Source: Limnanthes douglasii subsp. nivea | Lineage: Eukaryota > Streptophyta > Magnoliopsida > Brassicales > Limnanthaceae | DNA length: 64,000 nt | Direction of reading: 5' to 3' | Assembly: GCA_036936605.1 (NCBI GenBank) | Contig: JAUPFV010000001.1 | Coordinates: 341,445,081 to 341,509,080, forward strand | Translations under genes and position numbers: made by a program | Part shown: positions 6,693 through 62,299 of the stretch, piece by piece | Numbering within the stretch: position 1 is the stretch's first letter | How the letters are laid out: each line of letters starts with the position of its first letter | The notes under the pieces: generated by a model | Told to the model about the DNA's origin: nothing | The model's input: only the letters and a program-made list of their open reading frames with translations | Database searches by the model: none

Positions 6693-6697
6693 AGTGT

Positions 6698-16618: not shown

Positions 16619-16635
16619 TCCCACTGTGGTCGCCA
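16619..16635 (-). promoter_or_regulatory. Primer binding site of the Tat element
   Basis: On the minus strand, three bases after the 5' LTR end, TGGCGACCACAGTGGGA can pair with the 3' end of a tRNA ending ...GUCGCCA, a form found in some plant Arg tRNAs. The exact tRNA was not verified. Confidence 0.65.
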
Positions 16636-16638
16636 ATT

Positions 16639-17107
16639 TGGTGAGGATAAAAGTAGCCTGAGGGTAGGCTGGTAATTTCAAGTGGAGTTTCAAAACGGAG
16701 TAAGGGTGTTTCAGGATGGTGTGAAGGTGTTTCAAGGTGTTTCAAGGTGGAGAGAGAATTGAGCAGCTTGGCAGCAGTAAATTTTGTTACCCATAGTTAA
16801 TGCTGGTGGTTGCGAATTTATAGTATGAAATTTGGGCCCTTATGGGCTTTCGGGTCAAGTTTAATGGACCCGGGTCATGTTTAAAGACCCATGAGTTTTA
16901 AGCAGATGGGCAGGTAGCTTAGTCAGATAGTGTTTAGGTTTTTTAGTACTTTAGTCATAGTTGGAACTGCCTTAGGCTTGCAGTGTTCGAAGTCATCTGC
17001 CCGGTTCAAAAGTCCTGTCCGAATTAAGTTCTTGGAGCCTGTCCGGTTTACGGAGAGATTTACCTTGGGCTGCCCTCCCGGGGAGCACTTCGAATTCGGA
17101 CTCATCA
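16639..17107 (-). mobile_element. 5' LTR of the Tat element
   Basis: 469 bp, upstream on the minus strand, followed by PBS and gag. Six substitutions against the 3' LTR. Confidence 0.95.
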
Positions 17108-20140: not shown

Positions 20141-20570
20141 TGAGATTGAAAGAGAAAAAGAAGGATTTGTAAATATATAATATTTTTCCTTAATTCAGCA
20201 GCATAGAACAATGCTGCTTATATACAAGCATAGTCACTAACAACCTTGGGAATATTCCCTTGTGAGGTTGTTAGTGAATTTGAACTTTGTTTGGTTACAT
20301 GTATATTAATCAGTTACATCTGTTTGGTTATAGCAATTATGTAAACCCAAGTATTAGTTTTTTGCTGGACATGGGCCATGGATAGTCTACTAACTTGATC
20401 TAGGCCAAGCCTTGAGTGTTTACCCGGTCCAACACCAAAACAAAAACAGACACACCGTTTAGAGTTAGGTCATAACTGAGGAGCTGAGTTTAGGGTTATC
20501 TTCAACCAGCTCCTCTTCTTCATTCTTCACCTCTTCAATGGAAACCGTAGGATTACTATGATCTCCAACA
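20141..20570 (-). mobile_element. Shared central copia LTR
   Basis: 430 bp, TGTTGGAGATC...CAATCTCA on the minus strand. It acts as 3' LTR of internal B (preceded on the minus strand by the purine-rich GATGAGGGA) and as 5' LTR of truncated internal A (followed by a PBS). Confidence 0.9.
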
Positions 20571-22320: not shown

Positions 22321-23452
22321 AGTGTTATGGAGTAGCTGTAGATAAAGACTCTGAGTGTGATAGACTGGTTACCTTAGGAGAGTCAGGTAGAGGACTTGGA
22401 GTAGAGCTATGTTGCTGCAAGTGATCAAGGCACAAATGTGTATGTTGTTCAGTTGGAGCTGCAAAGTTAGACTCTTCAGAGGGTACCTTTTCATTTGTCA
22501 CAAGACCTGTAGGAAAACTAGGTAGCCACAGATGAACAGAGGACCTATAGACTGACTCTTTTTGGTGTGTGTTTAGGAAACCAGTATGAAATGGAAAATC
22601 ATCCTCATTAAACAAAACGTTTCTAGAGACAAACACCCTACCATTAGAGCTAAGACACTTATAGCCTTTGTGACTTTGACTATAGCCAAGAAAAACACAT
22701 TTGATAGAGTGAAACTGAAATTATGTGTTTGGTAGGGTCTTAGGTAGGGAAAACAAGAGCAACCAAAGGTTTTCAGACTTAGATAGTTAGGTTCTTTGTG
22801 AAAAAGTGTTTCAAATGGAGACTTATTGTGAAGAATAGGTGTAGGAAGCCTGTTTATCAAGTAAACACTGGTTTCAAAAGCTTCAACCCAGTACTTGTAA
22901 GGTAGTTGAGCCTGATCTAAGAGAGTTAACCTAGATTCCACAATATGTCTATGTTTTCTATCAGCCCTACCATTATGGGCTGAGGTATGTGGACAAGACC
23001 TACGTAGTAAGAACCCTCTTTCGTTAGCTAGTGAAAGCAAGGGCCTAAACTCACCCCGAGTCACTTTGAACAACTTTGATGGACCTTTCAAACTGAGTTT
23101 CAACTAGGACTTTAAAGTTTTTGAATACTTCAAACACTTGGATTTTATCCCTGATGGGATACAGCCAAGTATACCTAGAGAAGTCATCTAAGAACAATAC
23201 ATAGTACTTACATCCACCAATAGATTGAATAGGAGCAGGGCCCCAGGCATCAATATTTATTAAGTCAAGAACATTTTTAGCATGAAAACTAGAGATGGAA
23301 TAAGATAGACTGTGAGACTTGCCTAACTGGCAAGCCTCACAAAAAGTGATTGTATTGCTCACCAAAGAGTTCAACTTAAATGACCCAAGAACAGAATCTA
23401 AGACATTCTGAGATGGATGGCCAAGCTTCCTATGCCATCCATCTTTGACAGA
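22321..23452 (-). pseudogene. Copia internal B: integrase
   Basis: HHCC finger (WHRKLGHPSQ ... FCEACQLGK), then a core with ...LINIDAWGPAPIQ and VVQSDSG (frame 23374-23051) and, after a shift, the remaining core HTSAHNGRADRKHRHIVE (23103-22573) and the variable C-terminal region to about 22325. The usual Glu-containing NGRAERKH is NGRADRKH here, so the third catalytic position is changed to Asp, consistent with decay. Confidence 0.8.
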
Positions 23453-24949
23453 CTAAGATACACTAGTAGAGAAAACACTAGGAACACCTAGATTAAGACT
23501 AGATTGTGACTTAGAGAAGATATCCATCTTGTGGAGTCCATCTTTAGACCTCCCTCTGAGCAGGATACGCCATGTTGCCTTGTCCTTCACAAGACAGAAA
23601 CCCTTATGAAACTCTACAAAAACATTATTGGGATTGGTTAGTTGAAAAAAAAACAATAAGTTTTTGTTAATCCTAGTAACATGAAGAATATTTTTTAAGC
23701 ATATAGGTTTCCTGGTTAAAGAGTGTAGGGTAGACTGACCAATATGGGAAATGGGAAGTCTCTCACCACTACCAACAAGAATGGATTTGTTACCTGAGTA
23801 CTCAGACTTCTGTGCCATCTGAATGGTGCTCCCTGTGACATGGTGACTAGCACCACTTTCTGCATACAAGACCCCTTCACTTGTAGAGTCTTGTATAGCT
23901 AATAGAGCATTCTGATCTCTGTCTGACCTATCCTGTTCTGATGGTGTAGAGCCTATAACTGAGGGATCATCCCTGTAGAAACAAACAATAGCAGAGTGAC
24001 CATACCTGCTACAAATTTGACAGGTTGGCTTGTTCTGTGAGAACCTTCCTCCTCTGCCCATGTAGAAATTACTCTTTCCTTTAGGGCCATAGTTAGAATT
24101 GAAACCAGATCTGGCTCTGTATTCTCTCTGATTAGCACCTCTGTTATTAGGAAAATACCCTCTCTGATTAGAGTTAGTGAGTTGTTGCTTTGAGTCACTC
24201 CTGTGAGTAACATTTGCACTAGAAATGTTGATATTGGACACTGAGTTTTGTAACCCAATGAGTTGCTCAAGCCTACTTTCATATGTGAGCAGACTTGTTT
24301 GCAAGTCAAGCCAGCCCAATCCCTCCTTGTCAGCAAGACTGACCACAATAGGTGTATATTCCGCATCAAGACCTGCAAGAACCTGTGTTAACAGATCATC
24401 AATAGAAGTTAGACAACCAGCTAGGATTAGGTTGTCATATATCAATTTCATCTTGTTTAGATAGTCAAACATTGTTGAGGCTCCTTTATGAGTTCTTTGA
24501 AACTCAGCCTTATAGTAAGTAATCCTTGCTCTAGTTTGTGAACCAGACAGCTTGCGAGCAGCCTCCCAAAGACCTTTAGCTGACTGTTCTTCCATCAATT
24601 GAGTTGCTATCTCAGGGCTCATAGTGGAGTAAAGCCACCCAAGTAGCAGCTGGTCCTTTGACGCCCATTCTTCAAACTCTGGATTCTCAGTGACAGTCCC
24701 CTCAGAGTTTATAACAAATTTAGGAGGACATATATTTTCTCCAGTAATATAACTCCATAGTTTATTACCTTTAATCATAGGCAAACCAATAGTTTTCCAT
24801 AAGAGATAGTTACTTCTATCAATTCTAATGTTTTTTACACTGCTAATTGGATGCATGTGCAGGTTTTTTGAGGAGAAAGATGAGTTGTTCGAGAAGATGG
24901 ATCCAATAGAGTCTGAGCGAAAGGATGAGGAATCATTTGGAGTAGCCAT
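23453..24949 (-). pseudogene. Copia internal B: gag and protease
   Basis: A single 498-codon frame from an ATG at 24949. Gag carries the LTR-copia gag motif DRSNYLLWKTIG, an alpha-helical capsid region (NKMKLIYDNLILAGCL, DAEYTPIVVSLAD) and a zinc knuckle CQICSRYGHSAIVC. The protease motif reads LYAESGASHHVTG: the catalytic Asp of DSG is Glu, so the protease is probably inactive. The frame stops just before the integrase finger. PBS at 24965-24977 reads TGGTATCAGAGCC on the minus strand. Confidence 0.85.
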
Positions 24950-24979
24950 TGAAGGCTTAAGAGTGGCTCTGATACCAAG

Positions 24980-25407
24980 TGAGATTGAAGGAGAAAAAGA
25001 AGGATTTGTAAATTTAGAATATTTTTCCTTAATTCAGCAGCATAGAACAATGTTGTTTATATACAAGCATAAACACTAACAACCTTGGGAATATTCCTAT
25101 GTGAGGTTGTTAGTAAATTTGAACTTTGTTTGGTTACATGTATAATTCAGTTACATATGTTTGGTTATAGGAATAGAATAAACCCAAGTATTAGTTTCTT
25201 GTTGGACATGGGACATGGATAGTCTACTAACATGATCTAGGCCAAACCTTGAGTGCTGACCCGGTCCAACACCAAAACACAAACAGACACACCGTTTAGA
25301 GTTAGATCATAAGTGAGGAGCAGAGTTTAGGGTTGTCTTCAACCAGCTCCTCTTCTTCATTCTTCACCTCTTCAATGGAAACCCTAAGACTACCATGATC
25401 TCCATCA
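24980..25407 (-). mobile_element. 5' LTR of copia internal B
   Basis: 428 bp, TGATGGAGATC...CAATCTCA on the minus strand, followed two bases later by an initiator-Met-type PBS. Confidence 0.9.
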
Positions 25408-43478: not shown

Positions 43479-43597
43479 TGCAGGTTCTTGGCTGAGAAAG
43501 ATGAGCTGTTTGAAAGTATAGACCCAACTGAGTTTGTGCTCAGTGAAGGAGACTCGTTAAGATTTGCCATTGAAGGCTGGAAGAAGCTCTGATACCA
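43479..43597 (-). pseudogene. Extra PBS and gag start beyond the copia 3' LTR
   Basis: PBS TGGTATCAGAGCT at 43585-43597 and the first 31 or so gag codons (MANLNESPSLSTNSVGSILS and onward), identical to the true start at 48432. After 43479 the homology stops and chimeric-element sequence follows. Confidence 0.9.
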
Positions 43598-44056
43598 TGT
43601 TAAATTGTGAAGAAAAAGATAAAGATTTGTTTTGCTGTAATTTTCAATTTCTTAAATCTGTTCAGAATACAAGTTGTGTTATATAGAGAGTAGAGAATCT
43701 AACAACCTTGGGAATATTCCCATGTGAGGTTGTTACATATTGTTACCATTTTTTTGGCAATACTAATAAGACTACTCTTGAAGGGCTTTAGTAGATATAT
43801 TTGGGCTTCAATACTTAGAGAGACCCATGCTCATAAATGACCAGACCCACGTAGAGATCCAAGCCCGGTCCATAACTAAACCCAAGCTTAGATGACAATT
43901 AGGGTTTAGAGACCCTCAGACCAAAGCTGTCGAAGTCTTCTCTTCAGCCTCAATCCCTCTCTTCTCTTCAACCTGACTTCCTCTATTCTCTTCTCTTCTC
44001 TTCTCTTCTCTTCTCCGGTGTGCACGGTGGTCTTGTGACCATCACTACCTTTAACA
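43598..44056 (-). mobile_element. 3' LTR of the young copia
   Basis: 459 bp, TGTTAAAGG...TTTAACA on the minus strand, preceded by GTTTGAGGGGGGA. Contains a (gaaga)n microsatellite (43990-44016) that is translated at the end of the pol frame. Confidence 0.93.
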
Positions 44057-46026
44057 TCCCCCCTCAAACGCAGTGGCGATTCTGACAGCCCCAGTTTGTC
44101 ACGAAGGTACATAAACCGAGATGAAGTAAGAGCTTTGGTGAGGAAGTCTGGAATTTGATCCAGTGAAGGTACGTATCTAATCTGAACCGATCCTTGTAGA
44201 ACTTGATCCCTTAGAAAATGCACATCTAACTCTATATGTTTGGTTCGTGGATGAAATACAGGGTTGGAGGCTAAGGAACTGGCACCGAGATTATCACACC
44301 ACATCACCGAAGGCGGTATGAGAGGGATCTGCAATTCAGTGAGCAACGACTTCAACCAGATGAGCTCAGTAGAGAGATTGGCCAAGGCACGATACTCCGA
44401 TTCAGTGGAGGAACGGGCGACAACATTCCGTTTCTTGGATGACCAAGAAATAAGTGTTTTGCCCAGGAATACAGAATACGCCCCCACACTGCGACGGTCA
44501 TCTGGGGACGAAGCCCAATCAGCATCAGAGTAGCCATGGAGTTGCAGCTGATAGCATGGCTTTATGTGAAGACCCAGCCACCGAGTGCCAGATAAGTACC
44601 GAACGATTCTTTTAAGACTCTTCCAATGTATAGATGTAGGATTTTCCTGGTGCTGACTTAGACTATTAACCGCAAAAGCTATATCTGGTCTAGTATAAGT
44701 CAGGTATTGCAGAGCACCTAACAAGCTTCTATATTGTGTAGGACAGAACAATGGAGAACCATCAGAGGAGGAGTGCTGAGTACCAGCCACCATGGGAGAG
44801 GGGCACAACTTGGACATGGACAGACCCTGTGCGCAAAGTAAGTCTTCAATGTATTTATGTTGAGTTAGGTAGAACCCACTTTGGTCACGATGAATCTCTA
44901 TTCCCAGGAATAGACTGAGTGGCCCCATGTCGTTTAGTGCAAAAACAACATTCAGATTGTGTATGAATTCTGTTACGCATGCTGTGTCATTGCCTGTTAC
45001 AAGAATATCATCCACATACACAAGAATTAGAAGTATAGTTGTCTTATAGATTAGATAGAACAGTGAGGAGTCTGCCTTAGAGTTACAGAACCCCCAACTG
45101 AGTAGAGTTTCCCTCAGTCTAGAATACCAAGCTCGAGGGTCTTGTTCCAATCCATAGATGGCTTTATGTAGCTTGCAAATATGTGTAGGATAAATGGAGT
45201 CAACAAAGCCCTGAGGCTGTGTCATATACACAGTCTCTTGTAGAACACCATTCAGAAAAGCATTATTGATATCCAGTTGCCTCACAAACCAGTCCTTAGA
45301 AACAACAATAGTTAGGATTAACCTAACAGTAGAAGCTTTAACAATTGGACCGAATGTTTCATAAAAATCAACCCCTGGTTGTTGATGAAATCCCTTAGCC
45401 ACCAATCGAGCCTTATACCTCTGAATAAAGCCATCCAGTCCATACTTAACTTTATATATCCACTTACACCCAATGACATTAGATGAAGTAGAAGTAGGAA
45501 CCAAAGACCAGGTTTTATTAGCCATCAAGGCTTTATATTCAGTAGTCATAGCGTTTTTCCACTCATGAAGCCCAATTGCCTCAGTAAAACAAGTAGGTTC
45601 AAACACAGTGGTTTTAGCAGTGACCAGAGACCCAACATATGGCATTTTAGGCTTAGAAATTCCACTACGCAGTCTAGTTTGAATAATGTGTGGGTTGGGT
45701 GATGGGTGGTTAACAGATAAGTGTTCAGGATTAGAAAAGGGAAGTTCTATGGTCAAGGTAGGTGTTTGAGAAGTATTATCATTGGTATGAGTAGGGAATT
45801 TAGTTATGTCAGATAAAGAATCAGGAGAACTTGATGATGAAATTACCTTAGAAGGACCAGTAGGAGAGTGTTGAGTGGAGCTTTGTGGCTGCAAGGGAGC
45901 AGGGCACAGAGGTGTGTTATGTTCAGTTGGAACTGCATAGTTGGACTCAACAGATGATACCCTCTCATCCATCACAAGACCTGTAGAAAGATTAGGTAGC
46001 CAAAGATGGACTGAAACAGGAGACAC
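43906..46026 (-). CDS. Young copia: RT and RNase H polyprotein segment
   Basis: 706-codon open frame, the most intact coding unit of the copia elements here. The start is the first ATG of the open stretch and lies in the integrase-RT spacer; in the element it would be part of one gag-pol frame. RT: GCKWIYKVKYGLDGFIQ, RQLDINNAFLNGVL, catalytic YVDD in ILLILVYVDDILVTGND. RNase H: YSDADWASSPDDRRS, VARSSTESEYRALA, WCDNLGASSLAS, HIELDVHFLRDQV. The last ~50 codons lie inside the 3' LTR, including an Arg/Glu-rich tail from the (gaaga)n repeat. The upstream portion is in other frames, so the whole polyprotein is not open. Confidence 0.85.
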   Translation of the reverse strand: MSPVSVHLWLPNLSTGLVMDERVSSVESNYAVPTEHNTPLCPAPLQPQSSTQHSPTGPSKVISSSSSPDSLSDITKFPTHTNDNTSQTPTLTIELPFSNPEHLSVNHPSPNPHIIQTRLRSGISKPKMPYVGSLVTAKTTVFEPTCFTEAIGLHEWKNAMTTEYKALMANKTWSLVPTSTSSNVIGCKWIYKVKYGLDGFIQRYKARLVAKGFHQQPGVDFYETFGPIVKASTVRLILTIVVSKDWFVRQLDINNAFLNGVLQETVYMTQPQGFVDSIYPTHICKLHKAIYGLEQDPRAWYSRLRETLLSWGFCNSKADSSLFYLIYKTTILLILVYVDDILVTGNDTACVTEFIHNLNVVFALNDMGPLSLFLGIEIHRDQSGFYLTQHKYIEDLLCAQGLSMSKLCPSPMVAGTQHSSSDGSPLFCPTQYRSLLGALQYLTYTRPDIAFAVNSLSQHQENPTSIHWKSLKRIVRYLSGTRWLGLHIKPCYQLQLHGYSDADWASSPDDRRSVGAYSVFLGKTLISWSSKKRNVVARSSTESEYRALANLSTELIWLKSLLTELQIPLIPPSVMWCDNLGASSLASNPVFHPRTKHIELDVHFLRDQVLQGSVQIRYVPSLDQIPDFLTKALTSSRFMYLRDKLGLSESPLRLRGDVKGSDGHKTTVHTGEEKRREEKRIEEVRLKRREGLRLKRRLRQLWSEGL

Positions 46027-47433
46027 AAGCTCACTCTGATGAGTATTAAGAAAACCATTAGTGAAAGGAAAAACATCCTCATTAAAAACAACATTTCTAG
46101 AGATATAGACCCTCCCAGTAGAACTGAGACACTTATAGCCCTTGTGACTCTGACTATACCCAAGAAAAACACATTTAACTGAGTGAAACTAAAATTTATG
46201 GCTTTGATAGGGTCTAAGACATGGATAGCATGAACAACCAAACTTTTTGAGTGTGAGATAGTTAGGAACTTTGTGAAAAAGAACTTCAAAGGGTGATTTA
46301 TGGTGTAGGATAGGTGTTGGGAGTCTGTTGATCAGGTAGACACTTGTCTCAAATGCTTCAACCCAGTACTTGTAGGGTAGATTTGACTGAGCTAGAAGAG
46401 TAAGCCCAATTTCAACCACATGCCTATCCTTCCTTTCAGCCCTTCCATTCTGGGCTGAAGTATGAGGGCATGATCTCTTTAGAATAAACCTACACTCTTG
46501 AGCTATAGGTAATAATATTCTAAACTCACCACCCTAGTCACTCTGAACGGCCTTAATAGATCTATCAAACTGTGTCTCTACCAAGGCTTTGAATATTTTG
46601 AACACTCCTAGAACCTGACTTTTGTCCCTGATGGGATACAACCAAGTGTATCTAGAGAAATCATCTAGAAAAAGAACATAGTATTTAGCCCCCCCAATAG
46701 ATTGAATAGGTGCATGACCCCAAACATTTGTATGAATTAGATCTAGAACATGTGTAGAATGAGAAGTAGATATTGAATAAGGAAGGCTGTGAGATTTGCC
46801 CAACTGGCAAGCCTCACAGAAACTATTTGAATTACTCAAAACAGAATGAAGATTACAAGACCTAAGAACTTTGTCTAGAACACTTGAAGATGGATGACCA
46901 AGTTTTTGATGCCATTCATCTTTGACAGACTTAGATACAACTGTAGACAACACCCTAGGGACACTTAGATTTAGATTGCCTTGTGACTTAGGAATGGTAT
47001 CCATCTTGTAGAGCCCATCTTCACATCTCCCTCTGAGCAGAATAGTCCCTGTTGCCTTGTCCTTTACCAAGCAGAAAAATTTGTGAAATTCAACAAAGAC
47101 ATTGTTATGATTAGTCAATTGAAAAACAGAGAGTAAATTCTTATTGATCCTAGGAACATGCAATATAGGTTTCAAAACAATAGGCTGTTTAGTAAAAGAA
47201 TTTAGGGCTGACTGACCAATATGTGATATAGGAAGTCTCTCACCACTGCCTACTAAAATGTGTTTTGTACCTGAATACTCAGATTTCTGAGTCATTTGGC
47301 TAGTGCTGCCTGTGACATGGTGACTAACACCACTGTCAGCATACCAGACCCCTTCTCCTAGTGTATCTTGTGAAGCAAGCAAAGCATTTTGTTCACCTTC
47401 TAACCTTGATTGTTCTGATGGAGAGGAGCCCAT
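46027..47433 (-). pseudogene. Young copia: protease and integrase
   Basis: Frame 47433-46534 begins after the zinc knuckle. It has the protease motif WYADSGVSHHVTG (Asp intact), the integrase finger WHQKLGHPSS ... FCEACQLGKSH and the core start DLIHTNVWGHAPI, where the first catalytic Asp (usually IDVWGP) is Asn. It ends at VQSD, the second Asp. After a stop, integrase resumes in 46419-46189 and 46289-45972. The zinc knuckle itself (CQICNRFGHSAAVCYY-like) is visible at 47440-47500, separated from both neighbours by a stop or shift. Confidence 0.8.
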
Positions 47434-47646
47434 AACTGAGGGATCATCCCTATAATAACATACAGCAGCAGAGTGGCCAAACCTGTTACAGATCTGACAG
47501 GTTGGTTTACTCTGTGAGTACCTTCCACCTCTACCTGAGCCTCTGTAGAAGTTGCTTCTGCCTCTTGTATTGTAACCATTAGTATTGTAGTTAGATCTGC
47601 CTCTATATCCTCTACCTGAGCCTCTATTTTGGTTGTAGAAACCTCT

Positions 47647-48432
47647 CTAACTAGTGTTAGTAGATTGCTGCTTCAAATCACCTCTGTAAGTAACATTAGC
47701 ACTAGAAATGTTAACCGTAGTCATAGAATTCTGTAGACCAGTCAATTGCTCTAGTCTGCTCTCATAAGTGAGTAGACTAGTCTGTAAATCTAGCCACCCA
47801 AGTCCTTCCTTGTTAGGTAGACTGACAACAATTGGTGTGTATTCAGCATCCAGGCCAGCAAGAACCTGTGTTAGCAAATCATCTTTAGATGTGAGGCATC
47901 CTGCTAAGATTAGATTGTCATGAATTAGCTTCATTTTGTTGAGATATTCTGTCATTGAGGTAGATCCTTTGCGAGTTCTTTGGAACTCAGATTTGTAGTA
48001 TGTTATTCTGGCTCTAGTCTGTGAGCCAGATAGTTTTCCAGCAGCATCCCAGAGACCCTTAGCAGACTCTTCCTCCATCAATTGAGCTGTAATTTCTGGG
48101 CTCATGGTGGAATACAACCACCCAAGTAACAACTAGTCCTTAGCAACCCGATCTTCAAATTCTGGGTTGTCTGTGACATTACCCTCAGTATCTGTGACAA
48201 ATTTTGAAGGACAAGTCTTCTCTCCATTGACAAAGCTCCATAGCTTATTACCCTTAATCATAGGTACTACAACTGTCTTCCACAGCAAATAATTATGTCT
48301 GTCAAGACGAATATTATTGACATTGCTGATTGAAAGTAAATGCAGGTTCTTGGCTGAGAAAGATGAGCTGTTTGAAAGTATAGACCCAACTGAGTTTGTG
48401 CTCAGTGAAGGAGACTCGTTAAGATTTGCCAT
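47647..48432 (-). pseudogene. Young copia: gag
   Basis: ATG at 48432 (MANLNESPSLSTNSVGSILS), DRHNYLLWKTVVVPMIKGN, then a stop at 48133-48135 where the family has a Gln (…AKDQLL); the same frame continues 48132-47647 with SPEITAQLMEEESAKGLWDA, YLNKMKLIHDNLILAGCL. Coats the genomic RNA in the virus-like particle. Ends at a stop before a Gly/Arg-rich linker and zinc knuckle. Confidence 0.85.
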
Positions 48433-48459
48433 TGAAGGCTGGAAGAAGCTCTGATACCA

Positions 48460-48880
48460 TGTTAAATTGTGAAGAAAAAGATAAAGATTTGTTTTGCTGT
48501 AATTTTCAATTTCTTAAATCTGTTCAGAATACAAGTTGTGTTATATAGAGAGTAGAGAATCTAACAACCTTGGGAATATTCCCATGTGAGGTTGTTACAT
48601 ATTGTTACCATTTGTTTGGCAATACTAATAAGACTACTCTTGAAGGGCTTTAGTAGATATATTTGGGCTTCAATACTTAGAGAGACCCATGCTCATAAAT
48701 GACTAGACCCACGTAGAGATCCAAGCCCGGTCCATAACTAAACCCAAGCTTAGATGACAATTAGCTCTTCAGCCTCAATCCCTCTCTTCTCTTCAACCTA
48801 ACTTCCTCTCTTCTCTTCTCTTCTCTTCTCTTCTCTTCTCCGGTGTGCACGGTGGTCTTGTGACCAGCACTACCTTTAAC
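48460..48880 (-). mobile_element. 5' LTR of the young copia
   Basis: 421 bp. PBS TGGTATCAGAGCT directly adjoins at 48447-48459. Lacks 37 bp present in the 3' LTR, and its terminal base is missing (TTTAAC instead of TTTAACA). Confidence 0.92.
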
Positions 48881-49735
48881 TGGACCTCAGTTTAGGTTTT
48901 CGAATTCTTAACCGAATGAGAATCAAGGGAGTGATGCTAGACGGAGCTACCATTACAACTGTATTGCTTTTGTGTTCTTCACTTGTTGCTAAACTACGAG
49001 GCACCAGGTAATACGGGCACTTTAGGAAGGTCACAAAGGGGGTTGATGAGATCCTCGCTGAACAAGGTACTAAACATCCGTGCAGGGCTAAAGAAATGAC
49101 GGATGGTAATTTGTCCACACTTGCAAAACAGGCTTCTGAATTGATCAAATGGATGACTTCATGTGAACCTCATCTCCAAAGACTTGTTTCGATTCTTCTT
49201 TCGGCTGCAAATGATTCTAACTGGAGAATTAGACTTGTAACACTGAATTTTGTGCTAATATTTATGTACAAGTATAATTTCCTTTTCTCAATTGTTGATA
49301 AGAAAAATACTTGTGACATGGTGTGGAAGCTACTCACTGCTACCCATGTGGAGATTAGGGAGCATGCTGATACAATTCTGGTAGACTTTAGCGGTCTGGG
49401 TTCCCGTCCAACTGGTTTCGTTAAGTTTTTTAGCTCAACCATAAGTACTTCCAATGTTTTAAACACAGTAAGTTATACTGATGGTGATGCTTGTGTTAAT
49501 GGCTTTACGGGTCATACAAATGACAGGTTTTCTGTGGGATTGTCGAATTTCGGTGCGTATATTACTCGTGATTCAGAAGATATAGAAGCTATTTCCTTTG
49601 ATTTCCGAAAGCAGTACTTCATTTACTCAAAGGAGAATGATATTTTTTGCAAGCTTCCTTATCCAACATAAGATACATTTGGCTAGTATATTACAAGTGC
49701 GAGACATGGTACTAAAGTTAATATTAATCCGGCCA
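48881..49735 (+). pseudogene. Captured gene fragments: HEAT-like segment joined to P5A ATPase piece
   Basis: Interior of the chimeric LTR element. The open frame 49096-49671 starts with a helical, HEAT-repeat-like segment (SELIKWMTSCEPHLQRLVS, LLSAANDSNWRIRL, HVEIREHADTILV), faintly like plant TTI1-type proteins, though I would not name it. Its last ~35 codons clearly change character and match P5A-type cation ATPases (the MIA/PDR2 family): ISFDFRKQYFIYSKE and FCKLPYPT. The match continues through two stops to about 49735 (DTFG, HGTK). The join inside one open frame shows a chimera of two genes. A separate open piece at 48897-49010 (MLDGATITTVLLLCSS) is unassigned. Confidence 0.6.
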
Positions 49736-50129
49736 CTCAGAAGTGGATTAGGCTGTCAGGTACAGATCTTTTGACAGGTGATGTTGTCTCGGTTGAGCGA
49801 TTTTCTACTGGAGACCTGGGCATTTCAGGTAATGGATTTTCTCGTGGCTTATCGATTTTTCGTGCGATAACAATCCTTCCTCAGCATGACCGACGGAAAA
49901 CTAGATTTGGAAGAGTTGCAGGAAACACAAATTTGTACTTGAGAACTTTCAACAAGTTGCGAAGTTGCAATGTACACAGTTCAAAGCCATACATAAACAG
50001 TTGATTTACAAATGGCATTTTTCGAACATTCAGAAATGTGGAATCTGCATATTATATATTCAAAATTCAACGTTTTTCAACTATACATGATTCTGAACAT
50101 TACGAGTCTGATACCTTTGAATATACAGG
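49736..50129 (+). pseudogene. P5A ATPase continuation with internal deletion, plus unknown tail
   Basis: [19 protein letters not shown] at about 49741-49797 matches the actuator-domain start of P5A ATPases (family consensus close to GTDLLPGDVVS). In the family this motif lies roughly 90 residues after the HGTEA motif, whereas here they are about 10 codons apart: the membrane segment between was deleted. Downstream ([20 protein letters not shown]) I recognise nothing. Confidence 0.6.
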
Positions 50130-50541: not shown

Positions 50542-50721
50542 CGAAGTGGGAAGTTTTTATTAGTTTCTAACTTTTTATCAGATAAAAGACAGGTTTCTTA
50601 CTATAAAAGGTTTGGACGGGACAATGAGACGTTTTCACGAGCTAGAAAAAGAATGGGGGTATAAGTAGAGGTGTCAAACGGGTTAAACCAGCACCAACCC
50701 GCACCGTTTAAATCAGAACCA

Positions 50722-50873
50722 CGGGTTGCGGTCCTGCCGGGTTGCGGTCCTGCCGGGTTGCCGTCCTGCCAGGTTGCGGTCCTGGCGGGTTGCTCTTATG
50801 CGGTCCTGACGGTCTGGCGGTCCTGCCAGGTTGCAGTCCTAATGGGCCAGTTTCACAGTTAAACCGCCAGTTC
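50722..50873. repeat. Left subterminal repeat block of the hAT
   Basis: About seven copies of a 16-20 bp GC-rich unit (ggttgcggtcctgccgg type), then ggttgcagtcctaatgggcc. The last 45 bp (50829-50873) recur with two mismatches at 56720-56764 in the same orientation. Likely transposase binding sites by analogy to other hATs. Confidence 0.8.
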
Positions 50874-51487
50874 AAACCACCAGACGAACCATTTAAGAGC
50901 CGTTTACCAGTTCAAACCATCAGCCAAACCATTTAATAATTCAAGAACCGTTTATCAGAATATTTTATAATGTTATTTAAAATTAATTTGTAAGTGTTAA
51001 TTGAATCTAATTTCAATAATTGAGATATGTACCATATACACGAGTTAATTATTCTATTTCATGTATTTTAATTTAAATATGTTATCATTTTAATCGAAAC
51101 TTTATAATCATCAATTACATTTTAAACAAAAAATTGTAATTTGATTTTGATACGTTTGAATAATATATACCTATTAAATAATATATACCTATTAGACATT
51201 TAATTGTATTTTAATTTTAAATTATTAGGTGATTATTTAGATTCTTTCAAGCTTGAAGTGTTTATGGTATAGACATATATTAGTGTTTATGCATAGACAT
51301 AAATTACTTGTAAGTTGTAAAGAACAAAATAAAAATTGAAAGCGAGAGTGATTTAAATAACATTTAATAAAAAAATAGAAGGAAAACAAGCAATTCATTA
51401 AAAATAAAAACCAAACAAGTAACATAGTTGTTTAATCAAATAAAAAAGAAAAACATTACAACGATAATGAAAATCAAATGCAAAAAA
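50874..51487. other. AT-rich left flank within the hAT
   Basis: No coding sequence; presumably the 3'-UTR side of the minus-strand gene. Confidence 0.5.
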
Positions 51488-52997
51488 CTAAGGAGCTTCA
51501 TCGTTGTTGTTGTTGTTAGGTGGTTGACCTTGCAAATGCATGTTCTCCATCATCTGTCGCATATACTCCGACTGTTGGGCTTGAGAGTTTGCAAATCGCT
51601 CATTCCATTGATCTTGTCCATGATGCCACTGCTCGTATTGACCATGCCACTGCTCGTATTGACCATGCCACTGCTGGATGTGACCAAGTTGATCATTCAC
51701 CCCTACTTGCCACTGCTGTATCTGGCTAAGCTGGTCATTTACCCCCCTGCCAATTTTGAAATTCGATTTTCCATTTTGTAAAATCATCATGCCATTCCTT
51801 TTGTTGAGTATGCGCAAATTGCATATAATCCATATGATGCTGATGCAAAAACTCAGCAAATTCGCGATCGGTTCGTATTTGTTGTGGCGGTACTCCAGAA
51901 GAACCACTAGCATTTGGATCGAAAGACGCTTCAGCCTCAACTCGATACTGAGTAGGTGGATTTGGCGGTTTTGTAAGACCGTTCGCAGTATATATCTGAT
52001 TCAAGTATTGTCTATGGTGGTTCCATGCCTCCAAATTCGAAATCAACTCTCCATCCCAAGAGTATATTTCCTGCAAACGCAAAGAGTTTCTACCTATAGC
52101 ACTAGTCGGCCTCACCTTCACCGGAGTGTACATACTCACATCAGCTCCTTTCGAAACAAGCAATTTACTCAATATCATCCCATAAGGTAGTTTATTTGTA
52201 CCACACCTCGTTACCATATTTCGAATGATCAAGCTAGGTAAATTAATTATTCCCTGATTTCGAATGATAAAAGCAGTAACAAATGTTTGAATATATGAAA
52301 GCTGTGAATCATTGTTACTAGGGGGAAGAAATATACTATTTACCAATTTCAAAGCTAATCTCCCATTACCATCAAAATTACCCCGCATGCTTCGAAATTT
52401 ACCGCTAATTTTCGGAGCTTCCGCACCAGGACAAGTAAGAAGCTCTACTGCTTCTTCGTAAGACAAAGGCCAATCATCACTCCAGATCGTAGGGCGATAA
52501 CTAATGGGAGGTAATTTATTACCGGTATACATATCATGGGTTGGAACGGAAAAAATATCTTCGAAATCAGTTTCAAAAAAACTATAGGTTTGGCCATCAA
52601 TCAAACAATTCATTCCTAAACCTCTTGGATCATTTTCGATTAATCTTCTTGTGGCATAAAACTTTCGCACTAGTTCTATATACCAATCACATTTGAATCT
52701 AGCTAGTGTCATCCAACCTAGGCCATTATTAGGTTCAATAAGTTTGAAATGTTTTTGCATACCCTTTATTTGGATCAGTTCCTCATAGTCCAGATACATA
52801 GCGGACCAAATTTTTGTTACACCTCGACCTACTTGCTGATTACGGATGCGAAGCTCCCCCTCGCCGCGATGTTCGATAGTCTCGCTCTCCGTTACCTCCA
52901 TATCTTCAAACAACATATTTTCCATCTCTTTCACTTGGGAAGCGGTTGGTTCAATACATCCACCTTTACGAGCATGCTTTGTTCTTTTCGAAGACAT
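51488..52997 (-). CDS. hAT accessory protein (putative plant transposon protein-like)
   Basis: Start ATG at 52997, the first in the frame, about 150 bp downstream of a minus-strand TATA box. Basic N-terminus (MSSKRTKHARKGG), then a globular core from about residue 60 to 350 (YLDYEELIQIKGMQKHFKL, WYIELVRKFYATRRLIEND, RGLGMNCLIDGQTYSF) with the look of the large 'putative plant transposon protein' family, whose members occur in plant transposons without known activity. The C-terminus is Gln/Trp-rich with imperfect repeats (GVNDQLSQIQQW, GVNDQLGHIQQW, HGQYEQWHGQYEQW). The first frame closes at 51735; the repeat tail lies one frame over and is reached by removing one G from a six-G run at about 51745, so the real protein probably ends at 51488 (about 500 residues). 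No catalytic motif recognised. It may assist DNA binding or regulate the transposase. Confidence 0.75.
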
Positions 52998-53183
52998 TTA
53001 GCGAAACCTGAAATTTAAATAGAGTTTGAAAAATATATAAAAAAAATTAGAGAAGTGTAGTAGAGAGAGGGGATAGATTTGTAGTGGAGAGGGAGGAGGG
53101 GAGAGATTTGTAGTGGAGTTGGAGTGAAAAATATAGGAGGAGGTATGTGTTATTTATAGGGTTTTTTTTTTCATACTAGCCGT

Positions 53184-53493
53184 TTGATGACGTCATCAAG
53201 CGGACCATCCGGCCAGGCGTCCGGATGGTCCGCGCCCAACGGCTATTTCAAACCAACTAGCCGTTGGATGAACCGGGGCATCCGGACGGTTCGTCCGGAT
53301 GCCCCGGATGACCAACGGCTAGTTGGTTTGAAATAACCGTTGGTCATCCGGGGCATCCGGACAAATCGTCCGGATGCCCCGGTTACAACCGGACCATCCG
53401 GATCGACATCCGGATGGTCCGATTTGTCTGTCCGGGCGTCCGGACATTTCGTCCGGATGCCCTGGACCATCCGGACGCCCATCCGGATGGTCC
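53184..53493. repeat. Array of perfect inverted repeats in the hAT promoter
   Basis: At least eight palindromic units: TTGATGACGTCATCAA (53184-53199, with a TGACGTCA bZIP-type core); CGGACCATCCGG/CCGGATGGTCCG (53201-53212, 53221-53232); CCAACGGCTA/TAGCCGTTGG (53236-53245, 53258-53267); CCGGGGCATCCGGAC and its complement twice (53273-53307; 53348-53382); ATGACCAACGG/CCGTTGGTCAT (53308-53318, 53337-53347); CGGACCATCCGGAT pair (53390-53421); GGGCGTCCGGAC/GTCCGGATGCCC (53434-53462, one mismatch); GGACCATCCGG/CCGGATGGTCC (53464-53493). Loops are about 4-18 bases. Could be protein binding sites or strong hairpins. Confidence 0.93.
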
Positions 53494-53708
53494 GGGCGAA
53501 ATTTTTTTTTTTTTCGTTTTTTTTATGGGTCTCCCCTATAAATAGAGGAGACCCCAACACCAATACTCACACCTCTCAAACAACTCTCTACTTCTCTCTA
53601 AATCTATCTACTTGTTCGAAAAGTTGTAGAAATCTATAATTACTTATTTTACATATTCTACTCCTACGTTCGAAATTGTTTGATTTTTGTTTTTCCGCAA
53701 ATTGTTTC

Positions 53709-53795
53709 TTAGTTGTTATTAGTCTAAATTTAGTTGTTCTATCTTGTTATTAGTCTAAATTTAGTTGTTCTATCTTGTTATTAGTCTAAATTTAG
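53709..53795 (+). repeat. 31-bp tandem repeat in the transposase leader
   Basis: About 2.5 copies of ttagttgttctatcttgtta followed by ttagtctaaat, just upstream of the transposase start. Confidence 0.85.
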
Positions 53796-53853
53796 ATTTT
53801 ATTATTAGTATTTTATTGTATATTTAAAAAAAAAAACTGTTATTAGTTTTAAA

Positions 53854-55989
53854 ATGAATTCAAAACGTAGAAATACTGGGATAAACCAACCATCTAATGT
53901 GGATCTCAATACCATGGATGAATTTTCTACAGATTTCCCTCACGTTGACATGTTCTCCTCCCACGAAAGTGGTGGTGGAAGTACTAGTGGGTCGAGATCT
54001 CGTAAGAAAACATCTTGGATTTGGAAACACTATACTCTATCAGAAGATGGTTTGAATTGTATTTGTAACGTGTGCAAAAAAAGTTATCTTCACGTAAGTG
54101 GAGCTAGAAATATGGGCACTAGCACTGTGGTAAAACATTTATTTAAACATTCAATATATGATCCTACAAAACCTAACCCAACTAATGTTTGCACGAACCC
54201 TCAAACAGGTCTTCCTTTTGAGTTTAACCACGATACGTATAGGGAGGAAACAATGATTTATGCAGTCGGTAGTTTACAACCATTTAGTTTTGGGGATTCT
54301 TGGAGATACGAAAATTGGATGCAAGCTGGGGTAAACCCACAGGCAACACGCATTCCACGTACCTCTTTGCGATCGCTAGCCTTTAAATATTATTTACAAA
54401 GAAAAAAAGAGATTATTCAAACTATGCAGACTTTGCCATGGAATGTTTCGATTACTAGTGACATAGCTACTTTTACTGATTTAGATATGATATGTGTTAC
54501 CCTCCATTGGATGGACGCCCAATGGGTCCTCCAAAGGAGAATTATATGGTTTGAATCAATTGGGAAGCATAACGCACAAATAATTAGGGAGAGTATGATT
54601 GAATGCATGAATGTTTATGGCATTAAAAACAAGATTATGTCTATTTCGTTGGATAATGCATCTTCTAATATTAGTGCTATAACATTGCTTATACAAGATT
54701 GCAATCCCCCTTTTCCAAAATTGTTTCACACCAAATGTTTATGCCACGTACTTCAATTAATTGCGAAAGAAGGAATACGTATGGTTCAGGGTGATTATAT
54801 TACCCCTATAAAAATTGGGATCCTATTTTGCTCGACATCCGCTGCTAAAAAAAGAGCTTTTAAAACACTTGTTACTTCAAATGGGAAAAAATATAAGAAA
54901 CTTTTATTAGATGTCGAAACTAGATGGAATTCTACTTACACAATGCTTGCACGTGCGCATGTTTTTAAAGAAGAGATTACGACGCTTTGTAATGCATATC
55001 GTGAAACACCAATTGAACTAGATCATTGGAAATTTTGTGCACACATGTTAAGATTTTTAAGACTTTTTAAAGAAAACACCCTAACCTTTTCTTCACAAAA
55101 TCAACCTAATGCTCATTTGGCCCTTTTCACGATTGCTAATCTTGCCATGCATATGGATGAATTTAGATCACATTATGCATGCGTAGACATGGTGCCCGGA
55201 ATGGAATATAAGTTCACAAAGTATTTTCATCCAATCCCTGATAGTTATTCATTTGCTTGCCTTTTAGATCATTTTTCACGAAAATAAAAATTTGAATTGC
55301 TAGTTAGATGCTTTTATAATTCTGTACGGTTTTCTACAGATAAACCACCGACCGAACCAATTGACCCTGAAGGGTATATTAGCGGTATATATGATAGTTT
55401 GTATAATATCTATGATAAGTATGCTGCAAGATATAGATCAAATACATCTACAAATGTAAGGAGTGGTAACAATAGGGGTAGAGGGAGATCTACTAACTAT
55501 GTTCAATTGGCAATGTTACGAAACAATGTTACAGAAACCCCTCAATCTGATAATGAGTTGTATAGATTTTGGAGCACTAGGTTTGATTTTACGAATTATC
55601 CTGACCAAGGTATTGAAGATATCATAAGATGGTGGGGTACCAAAATTGAAGAGTTTCCTATTCTTTGCAGGATTGTTAAAGAGATTTATGCTATACCTAT
55701 GTCTACAGTTGCAAGTGAGTGTGCTTTCAGCCAAGCGAGGTTGCAATACACGACTAAGAGAACAAGATTGACGGGCAAAGCACTTGGAGTGCTTGTGGCA
55801 GTTAAGGATTGGACAGCGGCGGATAAAAGGATGCAAGACATAGAGTTTAGAGACGAAGTGAACGTAGACGACATCTTCGAAGATTATCCGGATGATTACG
55901 AAGATATACTTGAACAAGAAATTGCGGAAGAAAACGAAAATGACGACGAAGATTTTACTTACGAAGATGACGAAGCTGAAGATGAATGA
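53854..55989 (+). pseudogene. hAT transposase with BED zinc finger (one internal stop)
   Basis: Cuts and joins the element ends in the nucleus. One frame from ATG 53854 to TGA at 55987-55989, about 711 codons, broken only by a TAA at 55285-55287 in a run of A. BED-type finger C71-x2-C74...H95-x3-H99 (CICNVCKKSYLH, VVKHLFKH). Catalytic-core motifs: TSD with D203, then SLDNASSN with D267, then KCLCHVLQLI, the hAT C-x2-H box. After the stop: the middle region, a short RSGNNRGRGRS linker, and the C-terminal hAT dimerisation region (ELYRFWSTRFDF, IIRWWGTKIEEFPILCRIV) with the conserved Glu in STVASECAFS. Acidic tail. Length is normal for plant hATs. The single stop may be real or a base-call error. 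Confidence 0.88.
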
Positions 55990-56689
55990 TGTTTGTAATA
56001 GTTTTTTGCTATTTTGTATTGTAATTTGAAAACATTTGTACAACTCCTGGCCCGCACGAGTATAAACTGTGAATGGCTAAATTATCCAAAAATGACTTTA
56101 CCTTTTATTATAATAACAACAACTGTATTATGAAATACTTATAACTTCATAACATCTAAAACCAAAACAAAAAATAATAACAAACACTTGTAAAATTTAA
56201 AACCAAATCACAATAGTAATCAAATTGTAATATTAAAATTATAACCATAGAATTTGTAATATTTTAACATGATAAGATATAGTTAAAATGTGATAATAAC
56301 ATAAGTAATATTTAAAATTTTACTTATGTTATAAACATAATAATAAACATAATAATAATATTTGTAATATTTGTAATAGTAATATTTAAAACCAAATCAC
56401 AATAGTAATCAAAATGTAATATTTGTAATATTTATAAACATAATAATAATAATATTCAAAATGTGATAATAACATAAGTAATATTTAAAAATTTGGACTA
56501 TATAATAATTACAACACTTAAAATATTAATAACCAAAACAAATTAATATTAACAAAAATGTAATAATAATTCTATAATAATATGCAATATCTCAATATTT
56601 TTTAAATATAACATTTTGGTTATAAAATAAATAAAATCAGCATAATATTTACCAATAAACCGCCGATTTTTTACAAATAAACCGTGGTT
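55990..56689. other. AT-rich right flank within the hAT
   Basis: Non-coding, rich in 'taatattt' words repeated many times (for example aataataatatttgtaatat near 56340-56370 and again near 56440). Confidence 0.6.
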
Positions 56690-56764
56690 TCGCAGTCCTG
56701 CCGGGTTGCAGTCCTGCCGGGTTGCAGTCCTAATGGGCCAGTTTCGCAGGTAAACCGCCAGTTC
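56690..56764. repeat. Right subterminal repeat block of the hAT
   Basis: Three copies of the gcagtcctgccgggtt unit ending in the 45-bp segment shared with the left block, in direct orientation. Confidence 0.8.
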
Positions 56765-56825
56765 TTAAGCAGGTTGTCAGCTTTGATCCGTGGTTCCAGA
56801 ACCATTGGACACCTCTCGGTATAAG

Positions 56826-57300: not shown

Positions 57301-57629
57301 TGATGTAACTCACTATCTAAATTCAATTATTTAAATGTTTTTTTTTTTTGTTTTTTTTTTATATTTTAAGGATTTATTTAAGATAGCAAATTAAATCTAA
57401 TTACATTTAATTTAATAGGATATTATTTTATTATGTTTATTTTTGTTTCCATATTTTGTATTACGGATTTGAGTGATTCCTATTTAAGGCGCCTCAAACC
57501 TTACTTTTGTTTTTAGACTTTGATGAATAAAAATTGAGATTTTTCTCTGAGTCTCTGAATCTTATTCTCTAACCTAGGGTTAGGTATATATCTATTGTTT
57601 TTTTCTTCTAATCTTCCGCCAGGCCATCA
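57301..57629 (+). mobile_element. 3' LTR of the chimeric element
   Basis: 329 bp, TGATGTAAC...GGCCATCA, followed by TSD CTTAC. Confidence 0.87.
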
Positions 57630-57634
57630 CTTAC

Positions 57635-60600
57635 TTGCGTTACAAAAACCAATGATAGCTGAAAAAAAAAACTTAAATTAACCTTAAAAAATATTGGTTT
57701 CTGTCATGGTATACCAAATATGCCAAACAAAATTTGGATTATATGAAGAGACCATTTTAAAGTGTATGTAATTTGCAATCATGAGCAACTCATCCACTTA
57801 AAAGTTAATCACTCAGCATAAAGCAAATAATTCAAGGTAACTAACATTTTATGCTAAATGTTCTAGGATAAATAGAATTCCATTATAGGATAAAATTATT
57901 GACCTATCCAACAATCCACTAGAGTAGATTGTTATTGATGAATTAAACTGCATCACAAACTCATCTAAACAACTCTCTCGTACAAATCTATGTTTAACAA
58001 TTCTGGATGACTTCTTAACATGATTTTGGATTGATCTTTAGAGTATGTTAGATACATTTGAACCTCATTTACTTGGACCAACAAAACAAATGAAAAAAGA
58101 TTAGATAAAGTCTTAGTTATTACTTTGAAAATATTAAGGAAACACACTTAGCAAACACCTATTCAGATTATTCCCCTCTTCGCATTTCATTATGTAATAG
58201 ATCTTTCAAACTTAAACCTTCTTTTAAGTTCCCAAATATGTGGAAACTATACCTAGACTTCAACCAAATAGTTAGTGAATTTTGGAATTCTCTACTAACT
58301 GAAATTTTTTAATTTGTTTTTTGGAAAACATTAAAAAGGTTCAAAGTTAGTCTTACATATAAGGAAATATTTGGCAATATCTTTAATGATATTTCCAAAG
58401 TTTATGAGGAAATAACTTATGTTGAAAGCAAACTACAAGAGAATTAAAATCCATAGAATAAAGCTAATTTGTCAAAGCTAATGCTAAATATCTTCTTCTC
58501 TTGACAAGAGAATAAGCATATTGGGAACAAAAAATCTCTATAAATTGGATAAATGAGGGTGACAACAATACCTCTTTTTCATAACTTTGTGAAGAAAAGG
58601 CAAAAAAAAAAGAATAAGATCAATGAAATTAAAAAAAAAAAGTGAAATTGTTTTTAACTCCTTGCATTTGCAGATGACTATGTCATCTTCAAAAATGGTT
58701 TAATAACGAAGATTAACAAATTGAATTCCTTACGAAGCATTTACCAAGGAATATTTGGTGAATCCATTATCATGGATAAGTCAAGTCTAATTGTCTAAAA
58801 TAAAATAAACTAGAAAAGATTAAACAACATTTTAAAAGTCACTAGTTTCAAAACAAAATCTCTTTCTATGAAATATTTAGGAGTTTCTGTCGATAATAGT
58901 AACAATTCTAGTTTATATGATGACTTAGTAAGTAGAATAAGAATTAAAATTTATGATAGGGATAATAAATCCCTATCAAAAGTCGGCCGGTAGTCCTTAG
59001 ACTATCCAGTTTGGTAACATATAGTCCCTGAACTTTCAAAATTTCGGTGGTAGTCCATGGACTATCTATTTTGGATAAATGTAGTCCCATGCACATGTTT
59101 ATTAAGAGGACTAACTTTACCGAAGAAAGAAATTCAAAAGACTAACTTTATAAAAAATGAATAGTTGAGGGACTATCAATCACAAAAATTGATAGTCAGC
59201 ACATGCAGGGGGACTAACTTTATCCAAACTGGATAGTCCAGGGACTACCAGTGGACCTTTAAGTCCATGGACTATCTATCACTGAATCGGTAGTCGAGGG
59301 ACGAGTTACTGTTAAAATACAAAAATCCTATCATACTACATCCAATGTTCCAATCTTTGTAAGTTTGTTATTAACAAAATTGAAAGGATTTTTAATAGAT
59401 TCCTTTAGGGGATCATTGAAATTTACTCATGCAATTATTTGGACAAAATATAGCTCAATAATAATAAAAAACCTATAAGGAAGGTGGGTTGAACATTAGG
59501 AAATTTACTGATCTTCAAAATACATTCTCATGTATATTATTGTTTAAATTTAGAGAAAACAAAACTATTTGGGCCAGATACATGCAATATGTTTATTGTA
59601 ATAACTCTCACCCTCTTCTCAAATCAAACAAAAAGGTAGTACAACGTGGAAGATATTACTCGCTATAAAAGATAATGCAAGATTACTTGGATATTAGGTA
59701 ATAGTAATATGGAATTTTGGTTGGACAAATGGTTTAGAAATAAACCATTCATCAATATGATAAATGAGAGTAACACTGTGTGGTATATTAAAGATAGGGT
59801 GAAAGACTTCTGGTTGAATAGAACCTAGGATTTAACTAAGTTTAATCAAAACATTACTTCGTCTAATATTAAATTTTGATTCTAAATTTTTCAACCCACA
59901 ATGATCAAGAGGACAAAATATTGTGGTCAATTGATAATTTAAGTAACTTAAGGCACAAAAGTAATCATTATATTCTTTTTTATAAGATTTAGAATAACAT
60001 TATTCCAACCAAATACTCATTTATGAAACTAATGAAAGGTTGGATCTCTGTGGATAGTAACCTTCAAAAAATAAACTTTAATACAGCTTATAAATGTCAC
60101 TTTTGCTTTAACATTAAAATAGTGAATCATGTTTTTATAAACCATTCATGGTTTGTTGTGACTGGTTTTATTTAGCTAGAATATTTGGTCTAAACATTGG
60201 TAAATATATGACTATATACCATCTAATCATGTGTTGGTTCTAGTCAACCAACAAACCTATTCACGTTTGAACAATGATTCTTTCTATAGTTTGCTCGCCT
60301 ATCTGACACTTTAGATATAGAGAAAAAATTGATAATCAAACAATTTCTTCTAAAGTTATATTAGACAAAATATATTTTATATTATCTAGATTAGTTAATG
60401 TTAATGTCTTGAAGAAGAATATTTGGTAAGGTGATATTCACATTGTTAATAAACTTGGAAGTTACTTTCATATTGATAACCAAAGTAAGGTTAAGGTTTC
60501 GAAATGGATACAGCTCATTGACAATAGACTTAAGTTAAATTCATATGGGGTTTTACTGCCAAATGGCGAATCCAGTAGTCCTAGACTTATCAGAGATGAA

Positions 60601-60950
60601 AATGTTGTTGTCGTAGTTGCTTATGGCAGGTTATATGATTAAAAAATCCTTTAATTGCATAATGTAAGGCTATTTTAGATGGTTTTATAATCTGTAGTCA
60701 AAATTACATCAAAGTATCGATATTAAATTAGACTCAACCATTCTAATTGATATGCTGGCTAAAGGCTCTGGTTCCTGGTTCTTGAACTTATTCATCAATT
60801 GTTGTAGAAACCTAATCCTGTCAACCATGACTATTATACATATTTCTAGAACTCAGAATCAAGTTGTTGACTAGCTAAGCTAGCCCGCTGGACTGTTAAA
60901 TGCAAGATAAAGTAGGATTTCATACACAATCAAATCCCCAATCTACTTAG
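57635..60950 (+). mobile_element. LINE remnant, copy 2
   Basis: Same LINE as 1-4003. Endonuclease traces begin near 57700 (KIWIIWRDHFK) and run to TSFTWTNKTN near 58060-58085. RT: LAFADDYVIF at about 58660-58690, with the catalytic FADD box intact here though the surrounding frame is broken. Zinc-binding and RNase H-like traces run to about 60900. A segment of ~515 bp present in copy 1 (about 728-1240) is missing here. Shares the hairpin MITE (58979-59324) but lacks the solo LTR of copy 1. Stops and shifts throughout. Confidence 0.8.
58979..59324. mobile_element. Hairpin MITE inside LINE copy 2
   Basis: 346 bp; same insert and same flanks (ATCCCTATCA 58969-58978, ATCCTATCA 59325-59333) as in copy 1. 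Confidence 0.65.
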
Positions 60951-61309: not shown

Positions 61310-62299
61310 GGGAAATTCTATCTAAAGTATCTACTCAACTGTTATATTTTCATCTAATATCCAACTTCTCTTTTATTATTACTTAATACTAATCTTATCT
61401 ATATAAGTCAAAATTAATACCTAATTATTTAATAATACCTCAACTACCCTCGCTTCATCACCGACCGCATAACCATTTCTAATTCTTGAACCAAAAATTC
61501 TCTTTCTTACTTTTTATTTTTATTTTATTTTTTAAACGGTCATATCTTTTGAACCGGAGTTTGAAAAAAATATCCGAAAGCATTATTGCATTTCTTCATT
61601 TAAAATAAAAAAAACTAGATCCATTGATGATATTTTATGATTTTTTAAAAATAAAATTTCAATCATGAGATTTCTTTGAAAATCAATCATGTGATTTCCT
61701 TAAAAAATTAAACGTGCGAGTTCTTTGAAAAATTAATCATGAGAGTCTATTGAAAAATCAAAGATGAGAGTTCTTTGAAAAATCTATCACGAGAGTTCTT
61801 TGAAAAATTAAACATGTGAGTTCATTGAAAATTTAACAATGCTATTTTGTTTAAAAAATCAACAATGTGAGTTCTTTGAAAAATCAAGAATGAGAGTTCT
61901 TTGAAAAATCAATCATAAGAGTTCTTTGAAAAATCAATTATGCGAGTTCTTTGAGAAAATCAATCATGAGAGTTCTTTGAAAAATAAAACATGCGAGTTC
62001 TTTGAACAACAAATAAGAAAATATCGTTAATAGATCTACTTTTGTTAGTGTAAAAAAACAAGTCGATTGTACCTTCACACATTTTTTTCCCGAACTACAG
62101 TTTGAAAGTTACGGACTTTTTAAAATAAAAATAAAAAAGAAAAGTAAGAAAGAGAAATTTGAAACAAATAACTTCTATATAGAGTATCAAGGGTATTTTT
62201 GTCCATTATTTGGGCTGGTATACTTATTGACACTGTCCTATTTTCGGATATTAGTTGGTAATAAGGAAGTTGAGTGAGTATTTAGTGGTACTTTTCTCG
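61310..62299. mobile_element. Foldback/MITE-like element with a minisatellite loop
   Basis: Left arm 61310-61620 and right arm about 62055-62299 are diverged inverted repeats: outer ends ggaaattctatctaaagta versus the complement gagaaaagtaccactaaata, both reaching 'actcaac', and inner parts ttctctttcttacttttt in both. The loop is a 25-bp minisatellite. No ORF. A TSD is not convincing (A-rich on both sides). Confidence 0.65.
61660..62008. repeat. 25-bp minisatellite, about 14 copies
   Basis: Consensus ATCAATCATGAGAGTTCTTT then GAAAA; copies vary mainly in the first ten bases (aatcatgag, aaacatgtg, aacaatgtg, aattatgcg), while GAGTTCTTTGAAAAA is nearly constant. Confidence 0.92.

Follow-up and report, generated by a model that had tools for sequence, protein, structure and literature searches.

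The analysed window, a 64-kb stretch of Limnanthes douglasii subsp. nivea DNA, contains a hAT element of 6,152 bp at 50666–56817. An 8-bp direct repeat (TSD), GGTATAAG, flanks the element at 50658–50665 and 56818–56825. The left TIR (50666–50681, plus strand) begins TAGAGGTGTC and the right TIR (56802–56817, minus strand) gives GAGAGGTGTC when read inward. These match at 9 of 10 positions, or at 13 of 16 by eye count. We scanned for 8-bp direct repeats immediately flanking inverted ends that match at 9 or more of 10 positions and lie 200–20,000 bp apart, with low-complexity repeats excluded, and the ends of this element were the sole pair to qualify in the 64-kb window. Second-order Markov sequences (20 runs) yielded 0–4 qualifying pairs, with a mean of 1.55, and thus the TIR/TSD pair by itself is not beyond chance. 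The initial annotation had described precise TIRs and an 8-bp TSD at these positions; both are present, and the pair alone is within chance expectation. The element call is convincing because the ends enclose a hAT transposase and a 57-nt subterminal block that is repeated at both ends.

The left subterminal region (50722–50873, plus strand) comprises a 16-bp unit, CGGGTTGCGGTCCTGC, repeated in tandem at 50722–50793, and a copy of the 57-nt block at 50817–50873. The same tandem unit and the block recur at the right end (56692–56764, plus strand) in the orientation that they have at the left, and the 57-nt blocks of the two ends are 93% identical. An intact transposase would probably bind these repeats and cut at the TIRs, in the style of Hermes. 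A pattern search based on the subterminal repeats returned no match. Neither blastn (E ≤ 1e-3) nor tblastn (E ≤ 1e-2) retrieved further copies or fragments of the element elsewhere in the window, the one exception being a 26-bp match at 57333–57358. One contig of the viral_contigs collection (L001) was the only match to the TIR pattern. It was taken as a chance match, its similarity to the element being confined to the first 37 bases (84%, E = 1e-4); it compares with the second protein of the element at E = 0.033, and has no other match to the window at E ≤ 1e-5.

Several other features were recorded in the window. A Ty3/gypsy element at 6697–17107 has 470-bp LTR-like repeats (6697–7166 and 16638–17107, 98.7% identical). 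Its minus strand encodes pol and also gives a gag match below threshold, and its plus strand has antisense extra ORFs at 7565–8962 and 9396–10472. The ORF at 7565–8962 has a weak, sub-threshold match (E = 0.0074) to Transposase_28 (PF04195), a domain that excerpts of one survey report in 23% of Retand elements (PMC6317226). Several copia-type elements lie in 17367–25407 and 43479–48880. They include two 3.2-kb stretches (17367–20570 and 22157–25407) that are 92.7% identical, and an element with LTR-like repeats at 43479–44055 and 48341–48880 (92.7%). A direct duplication of about 3–4 kb links 49–4008 with 57932–60920, in pieces that are 78–82% identical; a copy of the hAT flank showing the empty site would fall outside the window. 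The open frames at 49012–50001, to the left of the hAT element, look like plant gene exons and have no Pfam match at E ≤ 0.01; one of them presumably resembles proteasome activator PA200. Finally, a tandem array at 61659–62018 consists of about 14 copies of a 25-bp unit with a 101-bp higher-order period.

The hAT transposase gene occupies 53854–55989 on the plus strand and comprises 711 codons when read through one in-frame TAA. This stop, at 55285–55287, is codon 478 and therefore the copy would lose the C-terminal part of the protein with E622 and the dimerisation region. PF05699, the C-terminal dimerisation region, is matched by the C-terminal piece (E = 3.7e-15, 55.9 bits, cut-off 21.4). 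Searched by itself, the N-terminal piece hits no Pfam family at E ≤ 1, and this copy gives no match to the zf-BED profile. C71 and C74 (CxxC) and H95 do not vary among the 10 sequences aligned, and P0001, the nearest relative, matches zf-BED at 5.1e-5. Thus, of the proposed assignment as a BED/hAT transposase, the hAT part holds, based on PF05699 and a predicted Hermes-like fold, while for the BED part the profile is silent here and the BED-like residues are invariant.

Of 3939 candidates, 60 proteins match the read-through sequence at E ≤ 1e-3. The closest, P0001, comes from a 2.9-kb contig and is 43% identical over 90%, and eight named plant proteins align at 22–26% identity. Two alignments were analysed, one comprising the query and 9 of the 60 matches and the other the query and 39 of the 60, some of them partial. 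In the ten-sequence alignment D203, D267, C295, H298, R357, W358 and E622 are invariant. In the 40-sequence alignment D267, R357 and W358 are invariant, D203, C295 and H298 are conserved in at least 90%, and E622 is absent from the 90% list. We take D203, D267 and E622 to be the hAT catalytic positions, and C295/H298 and R357/W358 to be CxxH and RW. A structure model based on the 40 sequences, in which the stop was read as a residue, has a pLDDT of 79. When this model was compared with the PDB using Foldseek, 12 of the 15 matches at E ≤ 0.001 were Hermes chains, and these were the twelve best (top, 6.9e-16). Based on sequence comparison only, Hermes matches transposase residues 547–645 with an E value of 6e-6. 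Stop aside, the predicted protein resembles a complete transposase of the hAT type, with BED-like residues, D203/D267/E622, the dimerisation region and a modelled fold like that of Hermes. A search of viral_contigs with the transposase alignment gave 11 pattern matches, of which none was confirmed.

The second gene lies on the minus strand, head to head with the transposase gene. Its main open frame of 420 codons starts at 52997 and is closed by a stop at 51735. An out-of-frame 3′ tail (51488–51741, minus strand), which encodes about 82 Gln/Trp-rich residues over 21- and 42-bp repeats, overlaps the main frame and ends at 51488. The frame break is apparent and was placed near a C run at 51742–51747. 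Across the break the protein does reach the approximately 500 residues first attributed to it, but the open frame itself has only 420 codons. The two divergent genes annotated in the element are both present as coding frames, although both are broken in this copy. The copy is decayed, with one lesion per gene: the in-frame stop in the transposase gene and the apparent frame break in the second gene.

No open stretch exceeded 263 codons when the region was shuffled 1000 times by mononucleotide, compared with the 420 observed, and the base use of the second gene per codon position resembles that of the transposase gene. In synonymous codon use it is closest to the transposase gene (correlation 0.62), compared with 0.47 for the copia pol and 0.39 for the gypsy pol of the window, and 0.08 and 0.29 for its own shifted frames, although these differences are small and weak as a guide, each comparison involving a single gene. 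In a neutral frame like that of the second gene, about 64 point changes (5% of sites) suffice to break it with 95% probability. Given this estimate, and provided that the absence of close relatives is due to genuine divergence, we infer that the frame evolved mostly under selection, somewhere.

Residues 93–284 of the second protein match Pfam family PF20167 (Transposase_32) with an E value of 5.3e-8 and 33.4 bits, below the curated cut-off of 45. The match is end to end, spanning profile positions 3–175 of 177. No PIF/Harbinger-type Pfam family matched the second protein. Among 1802 candidates from a protein collection that includes plant proteins, no relative was found at E ≤ 10. Because candidates had to share five-residue words with the query and be similar in length, remote members of the family may have escaped this search, and the collection may omit the retroelements of the host plant itself, so a recent donor could also have been missed. 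The second protein gave five pattern matches in viral_contigs and four in genome_contigs, none of which was confirmed, and the best E value in a sequence search of the PDB was 0.17. A single-sequence structure prediction had a pLDDT of 33 and was not used. Excerpts on a sunflower Athila element place PF20167 within a 487-aa extra protein that is predicted to be nuclear, and describe the family as related to Athila ORF1 (PF03078) (PMC11728184). Athila ORF-1 is reported in 16% of the Athila elements surveyed (PMC6317226), and in the relevant excerpts of both papers the role of extra ORFs in Athila-type retrotransposons is debated or doubtful (PMC11728184, PMC6317226). The second protein thus bears a weak resemblance to the accessory proteins that plant retrotransposons encode in this Athila-ORF1-related family, PF20167.

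A GC-rich nested palindrome of 314 bp, largely self-complementary, separates the two genes (53187–53500) and contains 11 of the 25 TCCGGA sites of the window. Folded as single-strand DNA, it has an energy of −150.4 kcal/mol, compared with −63.8 ± 3.6 for 100 shuffles, none of which is as stable (z = −24.2). Two TATAAATA boxes face outward, one on each side of the palindrome. The box at 53151–53158 (minus strand) is the putative TATA box of the second gene, in agreement with the initial annotation, which had given this gene a TATA box of its own, and the box at 53537–53544 (plus strand) is the putative TATA box of the transposase gene. Taken together, the palindrome and the two boxes suggest that the genes share a divergent promoter or operator. 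Alternatively, transcripts of the palindromes might form hairpin RNA and so induce silencing. A perfect 16-bp palindrome (53184–53199) at the edge of this region surrounds TGACGTCA, which we take to be a bZIP-type binding site.

We searched for boundaries of a separate insertion around the second gene by comparing left ends at 50900–51489 with right ends at 52995–53859, using TIRs that match at 9 or more of 10 positions and duplications of 2, 3, 4, 5, 8, 9 or 10 bp. This yielded sixteen TIR-like pairs bracketing the gene, each with a small duplication. All are AT-rich, with duplications of just 2–4 bp, and we rejected them as unconvincing. No LTR-like repeats or pol-like frames surround the gene, as would accompany an Athila-type ORF in an LTR element with gag-pol, and it lies inside the hAT ends.

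We consider that the second gene is an accessory gene resident in the hAT element, with a probability of roughly 0.45. The gene lies wholly within the TIR/TSD boundaries, and neither an LTR-like nor a convincing TIR/TSD boundary of its own is found at the gene. It has the signs of a coding sequence, in the length of its open frame relative to the shuffles and in its transposase-like base use per codon position, and it covers PF20167 almost completely. The absence of a close donor among the candidates searched, together with codon use that is nearest to that of the transposase, is consistent with residence, as are the outward-facing boxes that flank the palindrome and the predicted nuclear location of the Athila extra protein with PF20167, as given in excerpts of its description (PMC11728184). 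One lesion per gene also fits, weakly, with joint decay of the two genes following the same insertion. On the other hand, this reading is based on one copy, a PF20167 score under the curated cut-off and small codon-use differences from one gene each, and selection on the frame could predate capture, having acted in a retroelement rather than in the hAT element.

As a resident accessory gene, the second gene would likely be co-expressed with the transposase gene and have moved along with the element. The intergenic palindrome would serve as a bidirectional promoter or operator, so that the two proteins are produced jointly. The proposed role of the second protein is nuclear: it would assist or regulate expression or transposition, and would not be a second catalytic subunit. 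The gene was likely acquired long ago, from a pool of proteins that is also used by retrotransposons. A stronger version, in which a hAT lineage permanently recruited a gene of the PF20167/Athila-ORF1 type under one palindromic promoter with the transposase gene and thereby became a true two-gene hAT, the second protein being a required or regulatory partner with possible binding to the TCCGGA array, is tentative and, in our view, rather unlikely.

Because the second protein resembles PF20167, which is tied to Athila accessory ORFs, gene acquisition is a serious rival explanation. It is nearly as likely that a retroelement-derived gene was captured by one hAT copy or a small subfamily, by transduplication, and has no role in the element. 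The resemblance to a retrotransposon accessory family and the observation of a single copy point in this direction. There is also precedent for copy-variable sequence in hAT elements: the inserted sequence of grapevine Hatvine-6 elements is variable and is discussed under transduplication in excerpts of the report (PMC2528002). Capture without a role sits less well with the end-to-end domain, the putative TATA box of the gene itself and the promoter-like region held in common with the transposase gene. Likewise, the frame of the gene has just one apparent lesion, and no close relative that could be its donor turned up in the searched collection, nor any donor in the window.

The initial annotation proposed a role for the second protein as a dedicated partner or regulator, and suggested that the element may found a two-component hAT subgroup. 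The second, divergent coding frame within a hAT element is supported; the partner role and the subgroup are hypothetical. A hAT element in which the second protein is needed for excision or insertion, by analogy with ORF1 in PIF/Harbinger, is possible but improbable. The transposase, stop aside, looks like a complete hAT type, and Hermes transposase works alone. An obligate partnership would nonetheless be consistent with the divergent two-gene layout and the common palindromic intergenic region, and PIF/Harbinger elements do require two element-encoded proteins, according to the abstract of one paper (PMC2836001).

It is very improbable that the second gene represents a distinct mobile element inserted within the hAT element. 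The occurrence of its protein family in retroelements might suggest this (PMC11728184, in excerpts), as might the 16 TIR-like pairs, but these pairs are AT-rich with tiny duplications, and flanking LTR-like repeats and an accompanying polymerase-like open frame are both missing. The initial annotation had named a TIR/TSD belonging to the second gene itself as the mark of a nested insertion, and our scan revealed no convincing one.

The ordinary part of this locus is a decayed hAT copy. What is unusual is a near-complete second gene of the retroelement-accessory type, divergent from the transposase gene, and a strong central palindrome. To our knowledge, the two-gene plan is unusual among plant hATs. 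We found no report of such an element in the open-licence full-text literature, of which most subscription papers are not part and which was represented in part by excerpts. If the second gene is indeed resident, the sharing of an Athila-like gene with an unrelated DNA transposon would suggest a function that both kinds of element need. Examples would be delivery to the nucleus, evasion of silencing and expression control, as opposed to envelopment of a particle.

The element resembles the hAT superfamily (Hermes and plant RICESLEEPER-type proteins) in its 8-bp TSD, short TIRs, PF05699 domain, core residues and predicted Hermes-like fold, but differs in having a second, divergent gene and a central palindromic array. 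Like PIF/Harbinger elements (Ping/Pong), it has two element-encoded genes, although its transposase and TSD are of the hAT type and the second protein lacks a PIF/Harbinger-type Pfam match. The PF20167/Athila ORF1 (PF03078) extra ORFs of Ty3/gypsy elements share the end-to-end domain match, and the protein of sunflower Athila 14 has 487 aa in the excerpted description (PMC11728184), compared with about 500 here. In contrast to those ORFs, the second gene has a sub-threshold score, yielded no pairwise relative in our searches and is located in a DNA transposon instead of an LTR element. The grapevine hAT elements of the Hatvine-6 family likewise have additional sequence next to the transposase, which, as far as excerpts of the report indicate, is often unique to a copy (PMC2528002), whereas the addition in the Limnanthes element is an almost complete gene that has promoter-like sequence of its own.
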